DNA of 41,316 nucleotides. Source: a virus. A program made the translations under genes and the position numbers. Positions 1-41,316 of the stretch are shown here, piece by piece. Positions within the stretch are counted from its first letter, which is position 1. Each line of letters begins with the position of its first letter. The stretch is from IMG/VR virus record IMGVR_UViG_3300010157_000114, positions 1 to 41,316 of that record. One strand, 5' to 3'. The notes under the pieces were generated by a model. It was given only the letters and a program-made list of their open reading frames with translations. It ran no database searches and was not told the origin of the DNA.

Positions 1-32
1 CCGCAGTCGCGCAGACGGCAGCCGCGGTGGGG
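1..32. repeat. Terminal inverted repeat, left copy
   Basis: These 32 bases are the exact reverse complement of 41194-41225. The similarity continues imperfectly inward to about position 55 (15 further exact bases beyond a 9-base patch with 5 mismatches). It lies inside the start of a small gene present at both ends. The contig probably stopped here because the repeat continues outward. Confidence 0.9.
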
Positions 33-53
33 AGGCGTTAGGTGCGTGGGCAT
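1..53 (-). CDS. Start of a small Cys-rich protein, cut by the left edge (copy L)
   Basis: The ATG is at 53-51 and the frame stays open to the window edge, giving 17 complete residues that begin MPTHLTPPHRGCRLRDC. It overlaps the end of the 77-residue gene (stop at 40-38) in another frame, so translation may be coupled. The same N-terminus, with one Pro/Arg difference, starts at 41173 on the + strand. The DNA differs mainly at synonymous positions, which supports both as real coding sequence. Function is unknown; the Cys spacing seen in the right copy suggests a metal-binding protein. Confidence 0.5.
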   Translation of the reverse strand, partial: MPTHLTPPHRGCRLRDC

Positions 54-271
54 GGGGCGAGGGCGAGCTTTGCGGAAGCAATCTGGTTTTCGATTTCCGC
101 GATATAGGCGATGCGCTTCGCAACCTGCGCGGATGCGGCAGGCAGCTCGTTCGCGCGGGAGGAATCCATCGCTATCAGGTCGCGACAGCATTCTTCGCCA
201 AGCAACGCCATGCGCTGAGAGGATTTCCATTCAATGAGCTTTTTGATGTAGGAGAGTTTCGTCTTGTTCAT
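38..271 (-). CDS. Hypothetical 77-residue protein
   Basis: An unrecognised small protein beginning MNKTKLSYIKKLIEWKSSQR, with a helical, charged N-terminus, a CC pair near residue 28 and a second helix-prone half. No known domain is visible. It has its own promoter candidate just upstream (279-306), whose -10 box lies 7 nt from the ATG, so the mRNA may be leaderless. The stop codon overlaps the ATG of the partial gene at 53. It belongs to the leftward block with the replication-type protein but is separated from it by about 70 bp. Confidence 0.65.
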   Translation of the reverse strand: MNKTKLSYIKKLIEWKSSQRMALLGEECCRDLIAMDSSRANELPAASAQVAKRIAYIAEIENQIASAKLALAPCPRT

Positions 272-278
272 GGGGTCG

Positions 279-306
279 AATGTAGCGGGCTGCGTCCGTG
301 CGTCAA
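279..306 (-). promoter_or_regulatory. Leaderless-type sigma70 promoter for the 77-residue gene
   Basis: On the - strand, TTGACG (306-301) is followed by 16 nt and TACATT (284-279), then 7 nt to the ATG at 271. An A/T-rich stretch (307-330) lies just upstream of the -35 box, like an UP element. The expected transcription start would fall at or within a base or two of the ATG. The arrangement matches the other start-codon-proximal promoters in this window. Confidence 0.5.
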
Positions 307-341
307 TGCCTTTTTTAATTTTATTTTGTGGGGGGTGACTC

Positions 342-1067
342 TCACGGCTTGCAGGCGTTGGTTCTTTCCATTTTCACGTCCAGCGCGGTGACGTAGCTGC
401 GCCAGTCACGAATGGGAATCCATTTGTTGAGCGCGGGTCGCCAGTGGTGCCACTTCCGATCGCAAAGGTCTGAGTAAAGATTTTCCCGAAATTCATCCAC
501 GTTTTTCAGAGGCTCGGAAGCCACGAATGAATCAAACTCGCGCTGAGACGGGTAGTCCGGCACCTTCATCGTTTTGAGCTTGTCCTCTTTCGTCCGCATG
601 TCTGGCTTCCACGTTGTCGGAATTTCTTCAAAAATATTCCCGTCGGCATCGCCGATGTCCTCTTCAGACTTCTTCAGACTCTCTTTTGCATCGGATGGTA
701 CATCTTTAAGCTGGTACCTCTTAGTAGCGGCTTTCACCGTAGCCGGTGGGAACCGTAGCGGTTTTTTTCCGCTACGGTCAAAAAGGACGTAGCGAGTGGA
801 GGAAAACATGCCGCCTCGCCGCGTTTTGATTTTCTCGATGTAGCCGGAATACTCCAATTCTTTCAGGTGTTTCTGAACGCTTTCCCGGTGCCTGTCCATG
901 TGCCGCGCGAGCGTGTTCAGTGACGGGAACGGCATTTCGCACTCAGGGCCGACGTAGCCCTTGATGATGATGTAGAGCAACCGCGCCTCGACTGAGAGGG
1001 ACGTGTCGCGCACGAAACTGTTTTCAATCGGGAAGCGCCATTCGGCTTTTTGGGTGACGGTGTTCAT
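342..1067 (-). CDS. Winged-helix replication-type protein
   Basis: A 241-residue protein. Residues about 25-95 look like a winged-helix domain of the kind found in phage and plasmid replication initiators: an SLNTLARHMDRHRESVQKHL recognition-type segment followed by ELEYSGYI and a basic wing. The middle (about 110-170) is charged and probably disordered. The C-terminus, with two Trp-rich segments (WHHWRPALNKW, IPIRDW), resembles the C-terminal domain of phage replication proteins. I chose the ATG at 1067 because it overlaps the stop of the upstream gene as ATGA. The frame is open for 78 codons further upstream but has no support there. Replication initiation or host-range control is inferred. 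Confidence 0.7.
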   Translation of the reverse strand: MNTVTQKAEWRFPIENSFVRDTSLSVEARLLYIIIKGYVGPECEMPFPSLNTLARHMDRHRESVQKHLKELEYSGYIEKIKTRRGGMFSSTRYVLFDRSGKKPLRFPPATVKAATKRYQLKDVPSDAKESLKKSEEDIGDADGNIFEEIPTTWKPDMRTKEDKLKTMKVPDYPSQREFDSFVASEPLKNVDEFRENLYSDLCDRKWHHWRPALNKWIPIRDWRSYVTALDVKMERTNACKP

Positions 1068-1330
1068 TTCGCGCCCTCGATTATTGCGGTGAAGCGCGAG
1101 ATCCACGCGATGCGATTTTGCCGAGTTTTCGCGCCGGTCGGATTTGCGGCTGCGTTTTGTTCCACCCACTTGGTATTCACTCGGAACATCCGATCCAATT
1201 CGCGAAGGCAAAGCTCCTTTTCTGTCATTTCGCGGCGAGGGATTTCTTGCTGGCACCGTGGGCACGCCTTCCATGTTCCCGGCAGTTTCGCCCCGCAGCA
1301 CTCAAAGGCGTTTCGTTTGTATTCGTTCAT
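1064..1330 (-). CDS. Small zinc-ribbon protein
   Basis: An 88-residue protein beginning MNEYKRNAFECCGAKL. A CC and a CPRC pair about a dozen residues apart suggest a zinc ribbon in the first 30 residues; the rest is helical and charged. A longer frame upstream (to 1567) exists, but its extra residues look like out-of-frame translation, and the ATG at 1330 has a purine-rich GGAAGG about 14 nt upstream. That element is buried in a strong hairpin (1343-1390). The gene overlaps the winged-helix gene by four bases, so the two are probably cotranslated. Function unknown. Confidence 0.65.
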   Translation of the reverse strand: MNEYKRNAFECCGAKLPGTWKACPRCQQEIPRREMTEKELCLRELDRMFRVNTKWVEQNAAANPTGAKTRQNRIAWISRFTAIIEGAK

Positions 1331-2491: not shown

Positions 2492-3002
2492 AAAGAAGCC
2501 CGATGCCGCGCCGGATGCCGTGCAAGAACTCGCCGCGCCTGCGGTGCTCAAACGGCTGCAAATGTCCGCTGCAAAGTTCGCCGCGCAGGAGGACGACGCC
2601 GAGGCACGGCTTGACGCGCTCCGCTCGCTATCGCCAAACGCTGCCGAGACGCAGGAAAACAAAGGCGCGATTGCCCGCGCTGAGTGCGACCTACTGAACG
2701 CGCGGGACAACTTCAACAAGACGGCCAAGGCGCTTTTGAATTACGACCGAGGCGTTGCCATCGAGCGCAAAGAGGGAGAGAAGGCCAGCATCGAAGAATG
2801 CCGGGAGTGGATAAAGCACATTCTCGACTGTGTTCAAATCGCGCATCAAAAGTGCCGAATCACGATGGCGCAGGCAGCAGCAAAAGCGAATTCGCCGGAG
2901 GACTTTGTTGCTGCCACGGATGGCGCATTCAGCGCGGAGGTCAAAAACGCGATTAGCTCCGCGCTGGAGGACGGTGTGTTGCCGAAGTTTATTGGCGCAT
3001 GA
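2481..3002 (+). CDS. Putative terminase small subunit
   Basis: A 173-residue helical protein with a Lys-rich start (MAAKKKPDAAPDAV) and long charged helices through residues 15-110. It lies directly before the terminase large subunit and overlaps it as ATGA at 2999. I assign it as the small subunit, which binds the packaging site and loads the motor, mainly from position, size and helical character. I cannot see a clear Nu1-type HTH, so the sequence family remains open. Confidence 0.55.
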   Translation: MAAKKKPDAAPDAVQELAAPAVLKRLQMSAAKFAAQEDDAEARLDALRSLSPNAAETQENKGAIARAECDLLNARDNFNKTAKALLNYDRGVAIERKEGEKASIEECREWIKHILDCVQIAHQKCRITMAQAAAKANSPEDFVAATDGAFSAEVKNAISSALEDGVLPKFIGA

Positions 3003-4828
3003 GCACGCTTTCGTTCGCCGCAGAGAGCATCGTTTTCGAGAAGCTATCACTCTACACCGGCAAGTTTCAAATCGAGCACTACAAGCGCCTGCGTGCCCCG
3101 CTCGCTGCCAATGACGATATCCGCACGAAACGGCTCGTCATGCTCGCGGCGGCGGGCTGTATGAAAACCGTCGCACTGCAAATTTGCATCGCGCACCACA
3201 TCGCGCGCGTCGGCGGAGACTGCAAATTCTTCGCTCAGAATGACGACAAGGGCGACACATGGAGCCAAGATCGCGGACAGCCTTTCATCCTCCCGATTCC
3301 AGAATGCAAGCGGCTGCTCAAAATGAGCATCACGGAACGCGGGCGAGTCACAAAATCGAAGTGGTATTTTCGGAATTGCACGTTTCACATTTCCGGCCCG
3401 TCGAAAGCGCAACGGCAGACCGACCAACTCCAGACCGTGTGGATTGACGAGGCGCATTTGCCGGATTCGTTCGAGGACGGCGCGCTCAAGGAAATCGAGG
3501 ACCGAATCCAAAGCGCGGGCTGGCTAGGCAAGGCAGTCTACGGCACCACGGCACCGGATGACGGGCGCGAGATTGCACAGTTCTTTCTTGCCGGGCCGCA
3601 GAATGAGTATCACTGGAAATGCCCCAAGTGCGCGAAGCTCATTTGGCCGCTTTGGAGGGAAGTGACGCCGACGCAAAAGCACGCAGTGGAGGTCTATGGG
3701 AAGGACGTTTTTCTTTGGGATGAGACACCGGACAAGAAGCCGATTGTCGAATCCATCCGCGCGCGTTGCCCTCACTGCGAGGCGATATTTCACGACACGA
3801 CACAGGATCGGGAATCGCTGTGTGGCGATGATTACGTGCCGATGAACCCGAACCCGCAGCCGGGCACGGACTCGTATCGGTGGAACGTGTTTTCGGTGCC
3901 GGAGCTTGAATGGAAATCCACGCTGCAAAAATACGTCGAGGCCATCGAGTATGCTTTGCTCGGCAATCTGGACGTGATGGAGAATTTCGTGAAGAAGCAG
4001 ATTTGCGGAATCTGGACGCCGACGATGCCATCGCTCGGCGATGCCAAGGGCAATCGCGACTACCGGCTCGGCGACGTGTGGCAGCCGGGGGGTGAGACAT
4101 TGCGTGTCCTATCCTGCGACCCGCAGGCAGGCAAGGCCGGCGAGCCAGCGCACCGGCACGCGCTCGTCACCGAATGGGACAGACAGGGCAACTCTCGGCG
4201 CGTATGCTACCGGCGAATTGACACGGCGGCACAGCTTCACGAAATGGCCGCTGAGTTTGGCGTGCGCGAGGGCGTGCATGGCTCGCATTGGCCGTGCGTC
4301 ATAGTGGACTCAGGCCACGAACCGCGCCGCACGTTCCGCGAGTGCAGTCAATTCAACTGGCTGGCGTTCAAGGGCAGCGACCTTCAACAGTTTCACGTCA
4401 TTCACGACAAGGATGGGCGCACCGCGACGACGCCGATGCCATACTCCGACCCAGAGGCGCAGTCAGGCGTTGTCGGCGAAGCCCTGCCAAAGCGCATGGG
4501 AGCCAAGCGCGGGCGTTTGCCGGATGGATGGGCGTATTGCCTCACCGGGCACAATCCAGAGCTTTACAGCTACCTTTACGCGCTCATCACGGGCGCGAGT
4601 GGTCGTTACTTCGGCATCGCGATTGACATGCCGGAGTGCTACGTCAAGAATCAACCTGGCTTCATGCCCGTTCTTGAAGCTGACAAAAAGACGGCGACGG
4701 TGAAGCGGATTATTTTTAGGCGCATACGAGATGACCATTATTGGGATCTCGAAATTCTCGCTTTGGTTCTGGCTATCAGGAGCGGATTTTTCCCGCTGGC
4801 GAAACTTTCCGAAAACAACCCCGTATGA
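2999..4828 (+). CDS. Terminase large subunit, GpA family
   Basis: A 609-residue packaging motor that translocates DNA into the prohead and cuts it. Residues 50-58 hold a deviant P-loop (AAAGCMKTV), as is usual for GpA-type terminases. Residues 147-151 are the Walker B motif VWIDE. Two Cys pairs, CPKC at 208-211 and CPHC at 257-260, form the zinc ribbon typical of this family. The C-terminal half, from about 365 (LSCDPQAGK, D374), is the nuclease domain. Length is normal for the family. It overlaps its neighbours by four bases on both sides. GpA terminases usually act on cos sites, so a cos-type genome is likely. Confidence 0.93.
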   Translation: MSTLSFAAESIVFEKLSLYTGKFQIEHYKRLRAPLAANDDIRTKRLVMLAAAGCMKTVALQICIAHHIARVGGDCKFFAQNDDKGDTWSQDRGQPFILPIPECKRLLKMSITERGRVTKSKWYFRNCTFHISGPSKAQRQTDQLQTVWIDEAHLPDSFEDGALKEIEDRIQSAGWLGKAVYGTTAPDDGREIAQFFLAGPQNEYHWKCPKCAKLIWPLWREVTPTQKHAVEVYGKDVFLWDETPDKKPIVESIRARCPHCEAIFHDTTQDRESLCGDDYVPMNPNPQPGTDSYRWNVFSVPELEWKSTLQKYVEAIEYALLGNLDVMENFVKKQICGIWTPTMPSLGDAKGNRDYRLGDVWQPGGETLRVLSCDPQAGKAGEPAHRHALVTEWDRQGNSRRVCYRRIDTAAQLHEMAAEFGVREGVHGSHWPCVIVDSGHEPRRTFRECSQFNWLAFKGSDLQQFHVIHDKDGRTATTPMPYSDPEAQSGVVGEALPKRMGAKRGRLPDGWAYCLTGHNPELYSYLYALITGASGRYFGIAIDMPECYVKNQPGFMPVLEADKKTATVKRIIFRRIRDDHYWDLEILALVLAIRSGFFPLAKLSENNPV

Positions 4829-6052: not shown

Positions 6053-6310
6053 ATGCCATCACCGGGATTAGAATTTCGCTCATTCACCGCTGCCGAACTC
6101 GCGTCGGCGCTCACGACCGCCAAGGCGCGACTCGTCGCAGGAGACTGGACATCGGTGAGCGGCGGCGCGAAAAGCGGCACCAAGACGACGATGACGCCGC
6201 AGGAAATGATCTGCGCAATCACCGCCGAAATGCGATTCCGTGGGCTGCTCGCGCCGCTGGCGAATGTGGTTTATTCTGACTTCCGCACCTCTCAACTTGA
6301 TGGCTTCTAA
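6053..6310 (+). CDS. gpW-like head-tail joining protein
   Basis: An 85-residue protein with a helix-strand-helix pattern: FTAAELASALTTAKARLVAG, then a polar beta region (about 32-48), then MTPQEMICAITAEMRFRGLL. This order and the position between terminase and portal match lambda gpW, which seals the packaged head under the portal. The C-terminal 20 residues are extra. It overlaps the portal gene by 11 bases. The family assignment rests on pattern and context. Confidence 0.55.
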   Translation: MPSPGLEFRSFTAAELASALTTAKARLVAGDWTSVSGGAKSGTKTTMTPQEMICAITAEMRFRGLLAPLANVVYSDFRTSQLDGF

Positions 6311-8882
6311 CACCGCTCCCTCCACCTTTTCACCGCAGATGCAAAGCCGCATTCTGCGAAGCTACTCAGCCCTGCAATCGCCGTGGAAAACGGCGGTGCT
6401 TGCGGGATACGAGGGCGCACGGCAGAACAAATCCTTCAACTCGCCGACACGCGTGGGCAGCAATCCGAACAGCACGATTGCGCAGTTGCAGAGATCGAAG
6501 TTGAGCCTCCAAGGGGAAGAAATCGTGAAGAACACCAGCTTCGGGCGGAACCTGATCAACCGCAGGAGGGCCTACTGCTCATCCGGCATCACGTATCACC
6601 CAGACACGGGCGACTCCGCGCTCAACAAGCTCGTCACCGACTACTGCGTTGACCAGTGGAAGCGCATGGGAGTCAACCAATCCATGCAACAGGCATTCGG
6701 GATTTGCGCGGATGCCATGCTCCCGCAATACGGTGACTGCGCGTTGCGCTGGATTCGCAGCGAGCCGGGAAATCCCGAATCCGAATTGCGCTTGCTCGCG
6801 ATTACCGGCGACCGCATCGGCGAGGTTTATCGGTACGTCGCGCCCGTGGTGAAGGACGGTATCACGTATTATTGCGGCCTGTTTTTCAACGGGCCGAATA
6901 TCACGCATTACCGCATTTATGAGCGGTGGTATGACACGACCTACACGCGTCCTGAGAACGTGGAAGCGGCGGACGTGATTTTCTTCATTGACCCGATTGA
7001 CACCGGCGTGCGCGGAGTCTCGCTTTTCTCCGCAGCCGTGGACGACATCCGCAGCAGCCATGAGATTTTGAAGGCTACCAAGGACACGATGCAACAGCAG
7101 TCCAAGATGGCCGCGATTGCCTCGAACAATTCCGGCAGCGCGATGGATTACAGCTACGACAAGCAAACGAACGCGGACGGCACGATTGAATATCAGGAAA
7201 GCTACGCGGACGGCGCGGTGGTGAAGTATCAGTTCAACGGCGACTCGTATCAGGTGCTACGCGCTGAACATCCCTCGCAAGATTTCGTGGCCGCGTTGCG
7301 CTACCTCGACCAGCGTGGAAGCCTCGCGTGCGGATTCCCGTATGAGTTTCTGTTTTCCGGCAGCGAGAGCGGCGGCGCACCTTTCCGTGGCGCATTCGAG
7401 ATTGCAGGCCGCGAGATTGAACGGCTGCGCAATCAGGTTCATGGCCCACGCCTGGACGTGATCGCATACGTCACGATCATGGACGGCGTAGAGCGCGGGC
7501 TTCTGCCGGCAAAGGCGGGCATCACGCGGGGAAGCTGGCAGTTCACTACGTTGCCCTCAAGTGACGCCTTCCGCGATGCCAAGAGCGACATTGACCAGAT
7601 CCGCGCGGGCATCACCTCGCCGCAGCGCGTGATCGCGAACAACCTTGGCACCACGGCGGATGCGATTCTGAGCGAGACGCGGGAGTGGGCAATCATGGTG
7701 AGCAAGACGGTGGAGGATGCAAACAGGGAGCTTGTAAAACAGGGCTACAAGCCCACGGTGACCGCGCAGGACGTGGCGCAGGTGAGCGACAATCCTCAAG
7801 CGGCGGCGCAGGCCGAGAATCTCACGCAGGGCAAGCCCACGACCATTAGCGATTCCAGCACGAAGTCTGACACGGTGGAGAAAACAGGCGCGGCACCAAA
7901 GCCCGCTGCGATGGCAGACTTTGACGAATCGAAACACCCGCGCGCAAAGGACGGCGAGTTTGGCGAAGGCGAAGGCCACGGCAAGGCAAGCGCGGACGCA
8001 AACGAGGCGAGCAAGAAAACTTCCGAACAGGAACACTCATTCAGTCCATCCGCGCACGCAGACGCGGCAAAGGCGCACACGGATGCAATCGGCCACAAGC
8101 AGGCAAGAATTGAGGCTGTGAAATCCAACCCGCATTTGAATGAAGGCGAAAAGAAATCGCTCATTGCTGGCTACAAGAAAGACATCAAATTTCACGGCGC
8201 AATGGCCGCGCGGCACACCGGAACAGCGGAGCACTTGGACAAGTTTTGGAAGGAGCAGGAAAAGCGCGAGGGAACAACCGCAAAGCTGGCAGACTTTGAA
8301 GAATCAAAACACCCGCGCGCAAAGGACGGCGAGTTTGGCAGCGGAGGGGGTTCAAGCCCAAACGAACCAGCCGATAAGACCGGCAATTCCAATAGTGACG
8401 TTCACGAAGTTGTTGCGAACTTTGAAAAAGAAAACCGAAATGTTTCCACGCACGAAAAGATGCTCGTTCATTTGAGTGATGGAACATCTATACAGTCCGA
8501 AGGAAAGGCGGGCGCAGTTACTATTTCAGGGCATCAAATACGCCACATGAGGGAAGATGGAAATGCAACAATGACGCACAATCATCCATTCGTTGCCTCT
8601 CTTTCTAGTAGTGACCTAGGGATGGCCTGCAAAGCGAACTTGAAGGAAATCCGCGCGGCGGACTCTCAATTTATCTACACGGCGAAACGCCCCGAATCTG
8701 GATGGCCCAAAGATTCCACAGTCAAGGCTCAGTGGACGAAGCTATTCAACGTGAAAGCCAAGGAAGCGCGCGAAAAGATTCAATCGGGAACGATGACGGT
8801 AAAAGACGCCAACCGAGATGTGACTCACGAAGTAACGAAAGCGGTTTGCGAACAATTCGGGATTATTTATGCCAGACAATGA
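6300..8882 (+). CDS. Portal protein (lambda type) with C-terminal JAMM-like domain
   Basis: An 860-residue protein, far longer than usual for a lambda-type portal (roughly 500-550). Residues 1 to about 530 are the portal, with the family pattern LQRSKLSLQGEEIVKNTSFG near residue 60 and a conserved mixed core. After it come two nearly identical linkers (KHPRAKDGEFG, about 538-556 and 664-681) flanking an Ala/Lys/His-rich helical stretch. The last 160 residues form a separate domain with H760-N-H-P and S769-S-S-D772, which resembles the metal-binding HxH...SxxD motif of JAMM/MPN proteins. The ATG at 6300 was chosen because the earlier in-frame start at 6240 reads through the gpW-like gene. The C-terminal domain could be a protease, deubiquitinase-like enzyme or injected effector; this is inference. 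Confidence 0.85.
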   Translation: MASNTAPSTFSPQMQSRILRSYSALQSPWKTAVLAGYEGARQNKSFNSPTRVGSNPNSTIAQLQRSKLSLQGEEIVKNTSFGRNLINRRRAYCSSGITYHPDTGDSALNKLVTDYCVDQWKRMGVNQSMQQAFGICADAMLPQYGDCALRWIRSEPGNPESELRLLAITGDRIGEVYRYVAPVVKDGITYYCGLFFNGPNITHYRIYERWYDTTYTRPENVEAADVIFFIDPIDTGVRGVSLFSAAVDDIRSSHEILKATKDTMQQQSKMAAIASNNSGSAMDYSYDKQTNADGTIEYQESYADGAVVKYQFNGDSYQVLRAEHPSQDFVAALRYLDQRGSLACGFPYEFLFSGSESGGAPFRGAFEIAGREIERLRNQVHGPRLDVIAYVTIMDGVERGLLPAKAGITRGSWQFTTLPSSDAFRDAKSDIDQIRAGITSPQRVIANNLGTTADAILSETREWAIMVSKTVEDANRELVKQGYKPTVTAQDVAQVSDNPQAAAQAENLTQGKPTTISDSSTKSDTVEKTGAAPKPAAMADFDESKHPRAKDGEFGEGEGHGKASADANEASKKTSEQEHSFSPSAHADAAKAHTDAIGHKQARIEAVKSNPHLNEGEKKSLIAGYKKDIKFHGAMAARHTGTAEHLDKFWKEQEKREGTTAKLADFEESKHPRAKDGEFGSGGGSSPNEPADKTGNSNSDVHEVVANFEKENRNVSTHEKMLVHLSDGTSIQSEGKAGAVTISGHQIRHMREDGNATMTHNHPFVASLSSSDLGMACKANLKEIRAADSQFIYTAKRPESGWPKDSTVKAQWTKLFNVKAKEAREKIQSGTMTVKDANRDVTHEVTKAVCEQFGIIYARQ
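7914..7964 (+). repeat. Linker repeat in the portal gene, copy 1
   Basis: A 51-bp block encoding ADFDESKHPRAKDGEFG. It is repeated at 8289-8339 with 49 of 51 bases identical and in the same frame. Recombination between the two copies would remove 375 bp (125 codons) without breaking the frame, so the linkers may act as swap points for C-terminal modules. Confidence 0.85.
8289..8339 (+). repeat. Linker repeat in the portal gene, copy 2
   Basis: The second copy of the 51-bp linker, 2 mismatches from copy 1 (one changes Asp to Glu). It directly precedes a Gly/Ser-rich spacer and the HNHP domain of the portal fusion. Confidence 0.85.
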
Positions 8883-28540: not shown

Positions 28541-28854
28541 GCACGCCGAGAATCTGCCCCCGATGCAATAACTTCCTCTTTGACCACGAGTGTCCGAAAT
28601 GCAACTGCGCCAATAACGGTGAGTCCGAACCGGCGCGTTCGAGTGAGGGGTCTGTTACGTGCAGTGACTTGATCTGCGAACTGGAAGCCGCGCGCGTGCT
28701 GCTGCACGAACTCGAAAACGATTCGCATGGAAGCCGCGTGTGGGGCTTGCAGAAATGGAGCATTATCGAAGGTGCCATCAACAAGGCCGTCGCATCGGAG
28801 CGGGGCCGTTCGCAGATCGGTGAGCACAGCAACACGCCGACACCACGCCCATGA
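28537..28854 (+). CDS. Small zinc-ribbon protein
   Basis: A 105-residue protein. MSTPRICPRCNNFLFDHECP and the following KCNC give a CxxC...CxxC zinc ribbon in the first 24 residues. The rest is a helical region (LICELEAARVLLHELE). Its C-terminal 11 codons (GEHSNTPTPRP) lie in direct repeat copy B, and a matching remnant (GEHSNSPTQTS) is readable near 28132-28167. It overlaps genes on both sides by four bases. Confidence 0.6.
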   Translation: MSTPRICPRCNNFLFDHECPKCNCANNGESEPARSSEGSVTCSDLICELEAARVLLHELENDSHGSRVWGLQKWSIIEGAINKAVASERGRSQIGEHSNTPTPRP

Positions 28855-28933
28855 GCACGACACCTGACCTACTCACTCCGCGCGACCCCGCGACGACAGG
28901 CGTGTTTGCTGCTGCGGCTGGTTCCCCGACTCC
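28822..28933 (+). repeat. Diverged direct repeat, copy B
   Basis: The intact version of the repeat in copy A (28135-28246). It contains the last codons of the zinc-ribbon gene and the first 27 or so codons of the PP-loop gene, both in frame. This suggests that copy A arose by duplication of this gene junction followed by loss of the flanking genes. Confidence 0.65.
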
Positions 28934-29771
28934 CGTGCAAATTACCGCGGGCGCGGGATCGGCGCTGCCTCGTTGGAGCGGGGGGTCCGTGGCGAACATA
29001 TTCAGCAGCGGTGGTGGAACTCAGAGCGCCGCCATCACTGCTTTGATTGTCCAAGGCCGACTGCCGAAGCCTGACTTCGTTTGCATCGTGGACACGGAGC
29101 GCGAGCGCAAGACGACGTGGCAATATCTGGACGCCGTGATCCGTCCGGCGCTGCGAAGCGTAGGCGTGGAAGTGCATCGAATCCGAGTTGCGGAATGGGC
29201 AACGAACGGCACTTGCTTCTCGAAAGACTTGAACACGCTTTTGCTTCCGGCGTTCACAAATCAGACGGTTGGAAGCGTTGGGAAGCTGACGGGGTTCTGC
29301 TCTAACAAATGGAAGGTGGAAACACGGCAGCGGTATTGCCGGATAGTGCTCGGCGTGCCAACAAACCAGCAGCGCGCATGGATCGGATTCAGTTTGGACG
29401 AAGTGCGGCGCGCTGTGCGGATGATGGCAGGAGAGGACTACGCGGCTGGCCTGATTCGGTTCCCGCTGATTCACGATGCTCCCATGCGCCGCCAGTCCTC
29501 GATTGCGCTCGTGGAGAAAATGGGATGGCCCACGCCTCCGCGCTCGGCGTGCTGGAACTGCCCGAACCAATCGGACGGCGAATGGCGCGACTTGAAGAAG
29601 AATCACCCAGACGAATTTGCGGCGGCGTGCGCGCTCGAAATCGAAGTGCAAAAGGTGGACCCGTTCGCGTGGTTCCATGTGTCTTGCGTGCCGCTCTCGG
29701 AAGTGGACTTCACCGCGCCGGCAGACCTGTTCGCAGATCGCGCGTGCTCATCTGGAGGCTGCTTCACATGA
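28851..29771 (+). CDS. PP-loop protein, PAPS reductase-like
   Basis: A 306-residue protein of the adenine nucleotide alpha-hydrolase superfamily. The PP-loop is S52-SGGGTQS-59 after a beta strand (VANIF). DFVCIVDTERERKTTW (near 75) is the second conserved strand, and CWNCPNQSDGEWRDL (near 235) holds a Cys pair that may bind a metal or cluster. Phages often carry such PAPS reductase or DndC-like proteins. They may act in sulfur metabolism or nucleotide/DNA modification; the substrate is not visible. The first 45 residues look like a late N-terminal extension derived from the repeat. Confidence 0.75.
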   Translation: MSTTPDLLTPRDPATTGVFAAAAGSPTPVQITAGAGSALPRWSGGSVANIFSSGGGTQSAAITALIVQGRLPKPDFVCIVDTERERKTTWQYLDAVIRPALRSVGVEVHRIRVAEWATNGTCFSKDLNTLLLPAFTNQTVGSVGKLTGFCSNKWKVETRQRYCRIVLGVPTNQQRAWIGFSLDEVRRAVRMMAGEDYAAGLIRFPLIHDAPMRRQSSIALVEKMGWPTPPRSACWNCPNQSDGEWRDLKKNHPDEFAAACALEIEVQKVDPFAWFHVSCVPLSEVDFTAPADLFADRACSSGGCFT

Positions 29772-38088: not shown

Positions 38089-38516
38089 GCCGACGAATAC
38101 CATATCAGCAACAGCTTCGCGATCCGCGATGGCAGAAGAAACGCCTTTTAGTTCTGGCGCGCGACGGATGGAGGTGCATGTCGTGCGGAGACTCGAAAAC
38201 CGAGCTTCATGTCGATCACATCAAATACCGCACAAGGCGGATCAAGGCGTGGGAATACCGGATGGACGAACTGCAAACGCTGTGTCGCCCGTGCCATGAA
38301 GAAAAGCACACGCCAAAAGAACGGCCTTCCGCGATTGAACCGACGCCAGACATGACGCCAGTTCCGCCAGAAAGGGCGGCGCTAAAATTCGCCGAGATTC
38401 TTGAAATGATAAAAGCGGCAGAAAGCAATCCCGCCCATACTGCTGCGGTAAAAATTGCACAGCCTAGCCCGCAAGGTGGATTTGAAAAACTTCTAAAAAT
38501 ACTCGAACAACAATGA
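38085..38516 (+). CDS. HNH endonuclease
   Basis: A 143-residue protein. Residues about 15-75 hold the HNH core: VLARDGWRCMSCGDS (first Cys pair), ELHVDHI (catalytic His), LQTLCRPCHEEKH (second Cys pair and His). The tail is Pro-rich then helical. With the helicase and methyltransferase genes it forms the DNA metabolism block. As a free-standing HNH it may be a homing-type nuclease or an accessory in packaging or host DNA breakdown. The ATG at 38085 is preferred over 38025. Confidence 0.85.
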   Translation: MSRRIPYQQQLRDPRWQKKRLLVLARDGWRCMSCGDSKTELHVDHIKYRTRRIKAWEYRMDELQTLCRPCHEEKHTPKERPSAIEPTPDMTPVPPERAALKFAEILEMIKAAESNPAHTAAVKIAQPSPQGGFEKLLKILEQQ

Positions 38517-39295
38517 AGCCATTTATTGACCAATCTTTTTGGAGCGACCCCGACATCGAGGCCGCAAAGACCGGGGTGAAGCTGGCGGCACTTTGGCTCA
38601 TCACGAACACGCAGACCTCGCTTCTCGGCATTTGCGGAGCGTCGGCGGCGCGGTTCACCTTCGAGACGGGACTTCCGCCGGAAGCCCTTGACGCGACACT
38701 GCAAGCCCTTCCAAAGTCCTTCCAGCGGTTCGGTGGAGTCATTTTCCTGCGGAACTACATGCGGCACCAGTTCGGAAGCGGGGAGACTTTGACGAAAAAC
38801 AACTTCTTTAAGGCACTGAAAACATTGTTTCGAGCGATCAAAGACGATGATTTGAAGGCTGCGGTGTTGTCTGAATATCCTGAATTTGATTCTTCAACAA
38901 CCCCTTCCCAAGGGCTTCCTAAGCCCAAGGAAGGGAAGGAAGGGGAAGTACAGGAAAGGGAAGGGAAGATCCGCGCGAGGCGGAAAAGAACACCGCTCGC
39001 CTGCCCTGCCTTTGCCGAGTTTTGGGCGGCGTATCCGAAAAGGGAGGCCGTCGCCGACGCTGAACAGGCATGGATTGCCAACGGATGCGCAGCATTACTG
39101 CCTCAGATTCTCGCCAGCGTGCTCGCCCGCAAGTCGTCTGCCGGATGGACAAAGGACGGGGGCCAGTTCATTCCGCTTCCTGCGACATGGCTAAACCGGC
39201 GCGGATGGGAAGATCAGCCCACAGTTACCACCAACGGAACCAAACCCGCCGCCAGCTACTACCTGCCCGGCGTGGGCATGGTGAACGCGAAATAA
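38513..39295 (+). CDS. Putative replication initiator / helicase loader
   Basis: A 260-residue protein. The N-terminal 110 residues (WSDPDIEAAKTGVKLAALWL, AARFTFETGLPPEALDATLQ) look like a winged-helix domain, followed by a charged linker (KPKEGKEGEVQEREGKI). The C-terminus (FAEFWAAYPKREAVADAEQA, and later LPATWLNRRGWEDQ) is the domain found at the end of phage replication initiators and DnaD-like proteins. It directly precedes the DnaB-type helicase gene, so it probably recruits that helicase to the origin. Confidence 0.75.
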   Translation: MKPFIDQSFWSDPDIEAAKTGVKLAALWLITNTQTSLLGICGASAARFTFETGLPPEALDATLQALPKSFQRFGGVIFLRNYMRHQFGSGETLTKNNFFKALKTLFRAIKDDDLKAAVLSEYPEFDSSTTPSQGLPKPKEGKEGEVQEREGKIRARRKRTPLACPAFAEFWAAYPKREAVADAEQAWIANGCAALLPQILASVLARKSSAGWTKDGGQFIPLPATWLNRRGWEDQPTVTTNGTKPAASYYLPGVGMVNAK

Positions 39296-39298
39296 TCC

Positions 39299-40612
39299 AT
39301 GCAACCAGCCTTTAATCTCGCAGTCCCGTTCGATTCTGACGCGGAAAAGGGCATTCTCGCCTCAATCCTGCTCGCGCCGGTTGCCGTGCTTTCCCTTTGC
39401 GCTTCGGCCTGCATCACGAAATCCTCGTTTTACGCTCCATCGCACGGCGTTATTTTCGAGACTATCACGGAAACGCAGGCCGCATCGAAGCCGCTCGACT
39501 TCATCGTGCTGGCATCCGCCTTGCGGGAATCGGGGAGGCTAGAGGAAGTTGGCGGAGCGGCGGCGCTCAACGAGCTTTTCGTTTTCCTGCCCACCGCTGC
39601 GAACGCCTCGCACTACATCGGCATTGTCGCGAAAGCCGCCCTTGCACGCCGCGCATACTCACTTGGGGAGAAACTACGCACCGCAGCGTTCGACGCCGAA
39701 TTTGACCCCGTGGCGGCGCTTGCCGAGGCACAGCAGGAGATTGTCGCGATGCTCACGCGCAACCGGGCAGGCGCGAAATCCACGAAGGAAATCATCCGCG
39801 AAATCTGCTTTGAAGTCATCAACGGCAAAACCAACAGCGATGTGCTTCCCACCGGCATCGCGGGGATGGATGCGATGCTTCAACTCAACCGCTCCGATTA
39901 CCTCGTCATCCCCGGCCCTACGTCATCGGGTAAGTCGGCGCTTGCCGCGCAAATCTGCATCGCGATGGCAAAGCAGGGGGCGCGCGTGCTTTACGTGCCG
40001 CTGGAAATGAGTGCAAAGCAAGTGCTCACCCGCGCCATAGCCAGCGAGAGCGGATGGAACGCAGACCGCGTGCGCGGAATCACCATCGCCGCCAGCCGCC
40101 AGAACAACCCAGACCTCGACGAGGAAGCGCGCGAAGCGCAGGTGAAATTCTCCGAGGGCGCTTACAAAATCGCCAACCTTGACATTGCCGTGCGGGACGA
40201 CATCACCGACCTCGACGGCATCCTCGCGATGGCTCGCGCGCACGCGGCAGAAAAGCCGCTGGACGTGCTGTGCGTGGATTATCCGGCGCTAATGTCCATG
40301 CGTGGCACGTTCGAGCGGCGGCAACTCGCGCTGGCGCACGCTTCGCAATCGTTTAAGCGGTTCGCAACTGAGATCCGCGGACTCGTCATCACGCCCTCCC
40401 AAGTGAACAAAGACGGCGGCACACGCGAGGCGGCAGACTTCGAGAACGACGCCAATGCCATCCTCGCAGTGAGCTTTGACCCTGACAACGAATCCAAGCG
40501 CATCGTGCGAATTGCCAAGCAGCGCGACGGCGAACGCGGGCAGGCATTACCGCTGGAATGGCACGGCTCTACCACATGCTTTCACGACACATCAAAACAC
40601 ATCCCGCAATGA
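39299..40612 (+). CDS. DnaB-type replicative helicase
   Basis: A 437-residue protein with an N-terminal DnaB-like domain (residues 8-120), then the RecA-type helicase domain. Walker A is GPTSSGKS (206-213), Walker B is VLCVDY (323-328), and a SQVNKDGG segment (367-374) and KQRDGERG (408-415) are the usual DnaB motifs. It forms a hexamer that unwinds the phage replication fork. No phage DNA polymerase is visible, so host replisome use is likely. Confidence 0.92.
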   Translation: MQPAFNLAVPFDSDAEKGILASILLAPVAVLSLCASACITKSSFYAPSHGVIFETITETQAASKPLDFIVLASALRESGRLEEVGGAAALNELFVFLPTAANASHYIGIVAKAALARRAYSLGEKLRTAAFDAEFDPVAALAEAQQEIVAMLTRNRAGAKSTKEIIREICFEVINGKTNSDVLPTGIAGMDAMLQLNRSDYLVIPGPTSSGKSALAAQICIAMAKQGARVLYVPLEMSAKQVLTRAIASESGWNADRVRGITIAASRQNNPDLDEEAREAQVKFSEGAYKIANLDIAVRDDITDLDGILAMARAHAAEKPLDVLCVDYPALMSMRGTFERRQLALAHASQSFKRFATEIRGLVITPSQVNKDGGTREAADFENDANAILAVSFDPDNESKRIVRIAKQRDGERGQALPLEWHGSTTCFHDTSKHIPQ

Positions 40613-40920: not shown

Positions 40921-41048
40921 GCGGACGCCCGAGATCGAGGCAGCGAGAGGAGGACGAGTACGCGAACGTGCAGCCGCCGCCGGAAGCGCCCGGGCAGGCG
41001 CTCACCGCTCTCACCACCCTATGCGACCAATGGGAGGCCACCCGATGA
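40917..41048 (+). CDS. Hypothetical 43-residue protein
   Basis: It begins MSGRPRSRQREEDEYANVQP, a basic-acidic N-terminus followed by a helix (GQALTALTTLCDQWEATR). Overlaps on both sides as ATGA support translation. Function unknown. Confidence 0.45.
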   Translation: MSGRPRSRQREEDEYANVQPPPEAPGQALTALTTLCDQWEATR

Positions 41049-41167
41049 CGCAGGTGGACATGTTCCCTGCCCTCCCGCGCCGCCTCACGCACGCGGAGAT
41101 CCTCGCCGGGTTTGCCGAGCTTTTGCGCGCGGTGGAGGCGATGACGTTTTGGCACCCCTACCCGTAA
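41045..41167 (+). CDS. Hypothetical 40-residue protein
   Basis: It begins MTQVDMFPALPRRLTHAEIL and is mostly one amphipathic helix followed by a short hydrophobic end (MTFWHPYP). It overlaps its upstream neighbour as ATGA. It is the last complete gene of the window. Confidence 0.45.
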   Translation: MTQVDMFPALPRRLTHAEILAGFAELLRAVEAMTFWHPYP

Positions 41168-41172
41168 CTCCC

Positions 41173-41316
41173 ATGCCCACGCACTTGACCCGCCCCCACC
41201 GCGGCTGCCGTCTGCGCGACTGCGGTGCCCCTGACTGCCCTACGTGCGCCGGCGCCGAGGCCGCGCGGATCTACCGCGAGCAGCAGGAATGCGACCACGA
41301 GGAGCACGACCACGGC
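41173..41316 (+). CDS. Start of a small Cys-rich protein, cut by the right edge (copy R)
   Basis: The frame starts MPTHLTRPHRGCRLRDCGAP and continues 48 residues to the edge with DCPTCAG and a His/Asp/Glu-rich end. The spaced Cys residues (C12, C17, C22 and C25) suggest a zinc site. The first 17 residues match those of the partial gene at 53-1 on the other strand, apart from one Arg/Pro difference. Downstream codons are absent from the left copy because that copy is cut sooner. Confidence 0.6.
   Translation, partial: MPTHLTRPHRGCRLRDCGAPDCPTCAGAEAARIYREQQECDHEEHDHG
41194..41225. repeat. Terminal inverted repeat, right copy
   Basis: These 32 bases are the exact reverse complement of 1-32. 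The match continues imperfectly to about 41170. It lies within the start of the small Cys-rich gene. The window continues 91 bases past it. Confidence 0.9.

Follow-up and report, generated by a model that had tools for sequence, protein, structure and literature searches.

A small Cys/His-rich gene that probably lies twice, head-on, at the edges of an inverted repeat on the two arms of a tailed-phage genome

Chloroplast inverted repeats and poxvirus terminal repeats are large, have boundaries that slide and are kept identical by recombination. The repeat described here resembles them in that unrelated sequence gives way at a sharp boundary to inverted identity and in that the position of this boundary varies by genome, although it is much shorter where it can be measured and belongs to a tailed-phage lineage. 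The inverted terminal repeats of the linear phages of the PRD1 group and of phi29-like phages provide a second comparison, with inverted copies at the outer ends of the assembled genome. In contrast to these, the repeat of the window (the whole stretch of DNA analysed here, an IMG/VR record that is 41,316 bases long and classed as linear) carries genes, its inner boundary slides, its right-hand part falls short of the contig end, and the phage encodes a GpA-type terminase and a DnaB helicase rather than a protein-primed polymerase. A further likeness is to lambda-like early-region cassettes, where small variable genes are swapped between conserved flanks, here a promoter-like element (element E) and the small gene itself. 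In the present case, however, the same flanks are found on both arms and, in inverted orientation, cassettes can lie on one arm or the other. The open-access literature searched contained no description of tailed phages with long inverted repeats that matches this case. CheckV places viral contigs in an inverted-terminal-repeat class when a repeat of 20 bp or longer occurs at both the start and the end of the contig (PMC8116208). The window has an inverted match that is long enough for this class and involves its start, but the other half of the match (41170-41225) stops 91 nt before the end of the 41,316-base contig, which is thus not to be called complete.

The window comprises a left, terminase-side arm and a right, replication-side arm, and the features relevant to the comparison are as follows.

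1..53, minus strand: left copy of the small Cys/His-rich gene, 5' end; 17 codons, runs off the contig
1..32, no strand: exact inverted repeat, left arm; equals the reverse complement of 41194-41225
38..271, minus strand: P0003, a small cassette gene (77 aa) that lies upstream of the left copy and overlaps its start by 16 nt
258..345, minus strand: promoter-like element E, conserved, A-rich upstream
342..1301, minus strand: replication-initiator-like winged-helix protein (HTH_36, 2e-10; phrog_270, replication initiation, 1.5e-11)
2999..4828, plus strand: GpA-type terminase large subunit (PF05876, 5e-18); left arm, defines the type-1 group
38513..39295, plus strand: replication initiator-like protein, right arm (phrog_9474, 2.9e-17; phrog_270, 2.4e-16)
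39299..40612, plus strand: DnaB-like replicative helicase, right arm
41045..41167, plus strand: 40-aa ORF, last gene of the right arm, conserved in relatives
41173..41316, plus strand: right copy of the small gene, first 48 codons; runs off the contig, pN/pS 0.23 in frame
41194..41225, no strand: exact inverted repeat, right arm; start of the common, apparently homogenised part

The ORF at 342..1301 is the last conserved gene of the left arm, and the 40-aa ORF of the right arm ends 5 nt before the right copy. A lambda-family portal is also encoded (PF05136, 3e-9); the combination of GpA-type terminase and lambda-family portal assigns the window, as judged from these profile matches, to a tailed phage of lambda-like packaging type. 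Four ORFs of the window exceed 500 aa, namely the terminase, the portal and two without a Pfam match, and neither a protein-primed family B DNA polymerase nor a terminal protein was seen in the assembled window. Rfam and tRNA scans of the window gave no match and its GC skew displays no clear origin or terminus signal. With respect to host or prophage, the small protein and the terminase profile had no match in GTDB genomes, and there was no match among 50,697 phage records. An auxiliary metabolic gene that resembles phosphoadenosine phosphosulfate reductase lies at 28851-29771 (phrog_424, 1.1e-28), and the window also contains a 62-nt direct repeat, 90% identical, at 7903-7964 and 8278-8339 inside the portal-like ORF 6240-8882. 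In one relative, a single ORF of about 3,906 codons extends over G018:23474-35194 of the oriented contig.

The sole inverted repeat of at least 25 nt in the window is formed by positions 1-56 and the reverse complement of 41170-41225 (91% identity), and a search of the window's own IMG/VR record recovers this match with an E value of 2.5e-17. The exact part, positions 1-32 against the reverse complement of 41194-41225, comprises 32 nt, and the estimated chance of an exact inverted match of this length in 41 kb is about 5e-11. The left copy occupies the minus strand from 53 to 1 (MPTHLTPPHRGCRLRDC) and the right copy the plus strand at 41173-41316 (MPTHLTRPHRGCRLRDCGAPDCPTCAGAEAARIYREQQECDHEEHDHG), the latter remaining open at the contig end. 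The inverted copies are thus near both ends and asymmetrically placed, with the right match 91 nt short of the end, the right copy running 91 nt beyond the matching segment and the left copy cut at gene nt 53. The two copies differ at five positions, all within gene nt 13-21, of which four are synonymous and one is nonsynonymous (Pro/Arg) by the Nei-Gojobori method. The original prediction, made from the letters alone, had described an inverted match in which both window ends form the 5' part of one small gene reading outward, with mostly synonymous mismatches, and all of this is borne out.

The small gene is carried by 24 further viral contigs of IMG/VR, or 25 with the window, and a profile search together with a 37-nt degenerate DNA pattern revealed no further carriers. 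Full-length copies in relatives encode about 75 aa, in which C12, C17, C22, C25 and C40 are invariant, H42 is nearly invariant and a CxxC at 50-53 is present throughout. This Cys/His pattern is zinc-ribbon-like and the product is probably a small zinc-binding accessory factor. The small protein has no match in Pfam or PHROG, and its predicted structure (pLDDT 63, low confidence) has no fold match in the PDB. In the proposed frame pN/pS is 0.23 over 20 copies, while the antisense frames are unconstrained or contain stops, which identifies a real protein-coding gene under purifying selection, again as predicted. The antisense ORF at 41158-41316 was rejected as a true gene with pN/pS values of 1.8 and 2.8 in two antisense frames, and the third antisense frame was rejected with stops in 19 of 20 sequences.

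In some relatives the gene is interrupted. An endonuclease VII-family gene (Pfam PF02945, 2e-20) is located inside the small Cys gene at L046:13681-14491 (G009) and also in G011 and G020, with remnants in G010 and G018. Upstream, the interrupted gene has a different 3' end (CLHCGAELD...), and its original 3' portion forms a fusion with the endonuclease. This arrangement looks like a homing-type insertion and is comparable to F-CphI (PMC6083498). Separately, in G012, G013 and G018 differing small genes downstream finish in the same codons as the Cys gene (ADAAQDR followed by the stop), which suggests that cassettes join at a short 3' motif they have in common.

Comparison of the alleles divides the window copies into two parts. 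Over gene nt 1-21 five sites distinguish the copies; the left one is a single change away from G017/G018 and the right one two changes away from G008/G009/G010/G016, and codons 1-7 of the two belong to different lineages. From nt 22 to nt 53 there are no differences between the window copies and at least three to each of 21 relatives, and the His codon at position 9 is present in both window copies and absent from the 21 relatives. Within a single contig, the copies are therefore closer to each other than to relatives from nt 22 on. The differing 5' ends followed by a private, identical remainder define a recombination boundary, and the window copies fit a homogenised inverted repeat with such a boundary rather than slowly diverging paralogs. 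The earlier proposal of two diverged copies under selection is retained for purifying selection and abandoned for simple divergence, since the sequence from nt 22 on is identical and private to the pair.

Relatives were compared after orienting all contigs along the small gene. Six opposing-arm contig pairs display 19-31% identity before a sharp boundary and then exact identity over 75-127 nt to the contig end. G022 (left) and G021 (right), which are elsewhere 99.97% identical over 7.7 kb, share 124 identical nt from the start codon, with 19% ungapped identity upstream. Exact identity to the contig end extends over 127 nt in G011 (right) and L120 (left), 120 nt between G021 and both G015 and G019, 89 nt in G009/L121, 76 nt in G024/G008 and 75 nt in G001/G025. 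Identity before the boundary is 22-27% in G009/L121, G001/G025 and G011/L120, and the first two of these are same-metagenome pairs as judged by the sample number in their names. Depending on the genome, the boundary is positioned at the start codon, at nt 22, in the 3' part of the gene or just before a neighbouring gene, Y, and the common side is always the outward one.

The terminase-side arm runs leftward into the small gene in six relatives (G006, G008, G015, G016, G019 and G022), which thereby carry, at the same arm end, the counterpart of the left window copy. The replication-side arm runs rightward into the gene in G003, G004, G009, G011, G021 and others, and in independent relatives the genes that precede it at the left-arm end are unrelated. 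The left-arm set includes contigs picked by the terminase or the left-arm initiator gene, not by the small gene. All terminase-selected contigs whose left arm extends beyond the initiator gene (4/4) end in the small gene or traverse it, and G021, the sole terminase-selected contig reaching the right end, also ends in it. A single copy is read through in the type-2 relatives G007 and G012, where the right arm continues through the gene directly into structural genes, and also in G010/G018. No relative with both copies is present among the 24 IMG/VR contigs, all relatives being fragments; no single contig holds both full copies and the gap, the left copy of the window comprising only 53 nt.

Cassettes are similarly distributed over the two arms. 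Homologues of P0003, which precedes the left copy in the window, precede the small gene on the right arms of G001 and G007. A 0.4-kb stretch including the small gene is 98.8% identical between G022 (left arm) and G024 (right arm), and another stretch is 95% identical between G006 and G001. The presence of P0003 on either arm and these near-identical stretches across arms indicate that small genes move between arms. Element E consists in the window of a -35 TTGACG (306-301), 16 nt and a -10 TACATT (284-279), and in relatives of TTGACG, 16 nt and TACATT or TAGATT. On left arms and right arms alike it lies directly upstream of the variable cassette gene that precedes the small Cys gene.

Outward of the small gene comes gene Y, of 69 aa, then non-coding sequence that contains short direct repeats, and after it a variable gene and finally c103. 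The order is the same on the right arm (G003) and on left arms (G015, and from Y on G025 and L121). The direct repeats measure 24 nt in G003 and L121 (TGCAATGCGATAGCTTATGCACGC) and 18-23 nt in G015, and this repeat-rich stretch is, as a reasonable guess, a putative origin. Four contigs extend as far as c103, and each of them terminates 140-325 nt past it, at positions that differ by 25-100 nt, two of them in repeat-rich sequence, and neither c103 nor the tested tail sequence was found in any other viral contig. TGAGA/TCTCA motifs occur 13-17 times per 300 nt in two c103 tails against a background of about 0.4. These clusters, at the outer end of the module (L067:10130-10454 and L073:10985-11159), are possibly an origin or a protein-binding cluster.

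The positions of the contig breaks support the suggestion, made from the window alone, that the contig ended at the repeat. Ten of the 25 gene-bearing contigs stop 81-157 nt past the start codon and exact 127-nt overlaps recur at contig ends, 127 being a common assembler k; the window itself stops, at its left end, only 32 nt into the common part. Exact 127-nt overlaps are also observed between strains in ordinary genes, and thus breaks alone reveal repetition in the sample, not in one genome. It is the unbranched runs of 75-127 nt, the private shared sequence and the terminase-selected arm ends that favour two copies per genome.

Near-identical copies reading outward at both window ends, together with the same arrangement in relatives, most likely mean that the gene is present twice, head-on; the two copies would probably form the inner edge of an inverted repeat on both arms, around an unassembled piece. 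One copy would close the terminase-side arm and the other the replication-side arm. Arm-specific sequence would halt at a sharp boundary near the gene start, beyond which both arms would continue through the rest of the gene, gene Y and the repeat-rich origin-like stretch. We infer that gene conversion between the copies keeps both identical, and recombination between them would cause the boundary to slide among genomes and allow cassettes to pass between arms. Short-read assembly would then halt within the repeat. A circular map is probable, in which the module would occupy the gap of this genome; such a map is favoured by the GpA-type terminase, the lambda-family portal, the DnaB helicase and the read-through in G007 and G012. 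The original prediction had placed convergent paralogs in the gap of a circular map, which is kept here as the best reading, although that the copies converge within one molecule is something we infer.

The main rival is a mixture of strains, in which each phage would carry one copy, left or right by strain, and a contig end would have been extended into the junction of the other variant. The occurrence of cassettes and gene on either arm in relatives, the frequent strain-level branching of these assemblies and the existence of single-copy relatives would all be expected from such a mixture, yet it predicts branching at the arm's own boundary, whereas the contigs run unbranched 75-127 nt into the common part. 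Moreover, every readable terminase-selected arm end enters the gene, and the window copies have in common a sequence absent from 21 relatives, which makes a mixture unlikely. Inverted matches at contig ends are also a known artefact pattern, and a fold-back chimera from library preparation or assembly was considered as a further reading. The 5' alleles, however, differ at 5 of 21 nt, the upstream sequences are unrelated and the left-arm junction is reproduced in independent relatives, whose left-arm ends enter the same gene. The differing alleles and the recurring junction rule out a fold-back, to which we assign practically no probability, in agreement with the original prediction.

A linear genome with long inverted terminal repeats, in which the module would be the terminal repeat and contigs would stop at a physical end, would account for the termination of all four c103 contigs 140-325 nt past c103, for the lack of c103 or tested tail sequence in any other viral contig and for the same module outward on both arms. 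It is less likely than a circular map and, by our estimate, improbable: GpA-type terminase, lambda-type portal and DnaB suggest circular replication with cos or headful packaging, the ends differ by 25-100 nt with two in repeat-rich sequence, and in G007 and G012 the gene is followed directly by structural genes. The copies could also serve as crossover sites at which either the 41-kb arm unit or the small module is inverted, with both orientations coexisting. Each of these units would have inverted repeats longer than 100 nt on its two sides, and the same module is found on either arm, but no recombinase adjoins the repeats among the genes examined. Flipping in any case needs two copies and would be a consequence of the head-on arrangement, not an alternative to it; as a separate explanation it is very improbable.

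The head-on arrangement also admits a broader statement, which we make tentatively and consider on balance doubtful: a lambda-type tailed-phage lineage would bear on both arms an inverted repeat that exceeds 1 kb, carries genes and includes an origin-like region; its inner boundary would slide, cassettes would swap arms across it, and it may represent physical termini or a 41-kb flip site. If two copies are indeed present, short-read assembly would systematically break the genomes of a whole environmental phage group at a single inverted repeat. These genomes would in consequence pass for linear fragments, and databases would lack the probable origin region. The group would also offer a natural setting in which to follow gene conversion, and the exchange of cassettes, from one end of a tailed-phage genome to the other.
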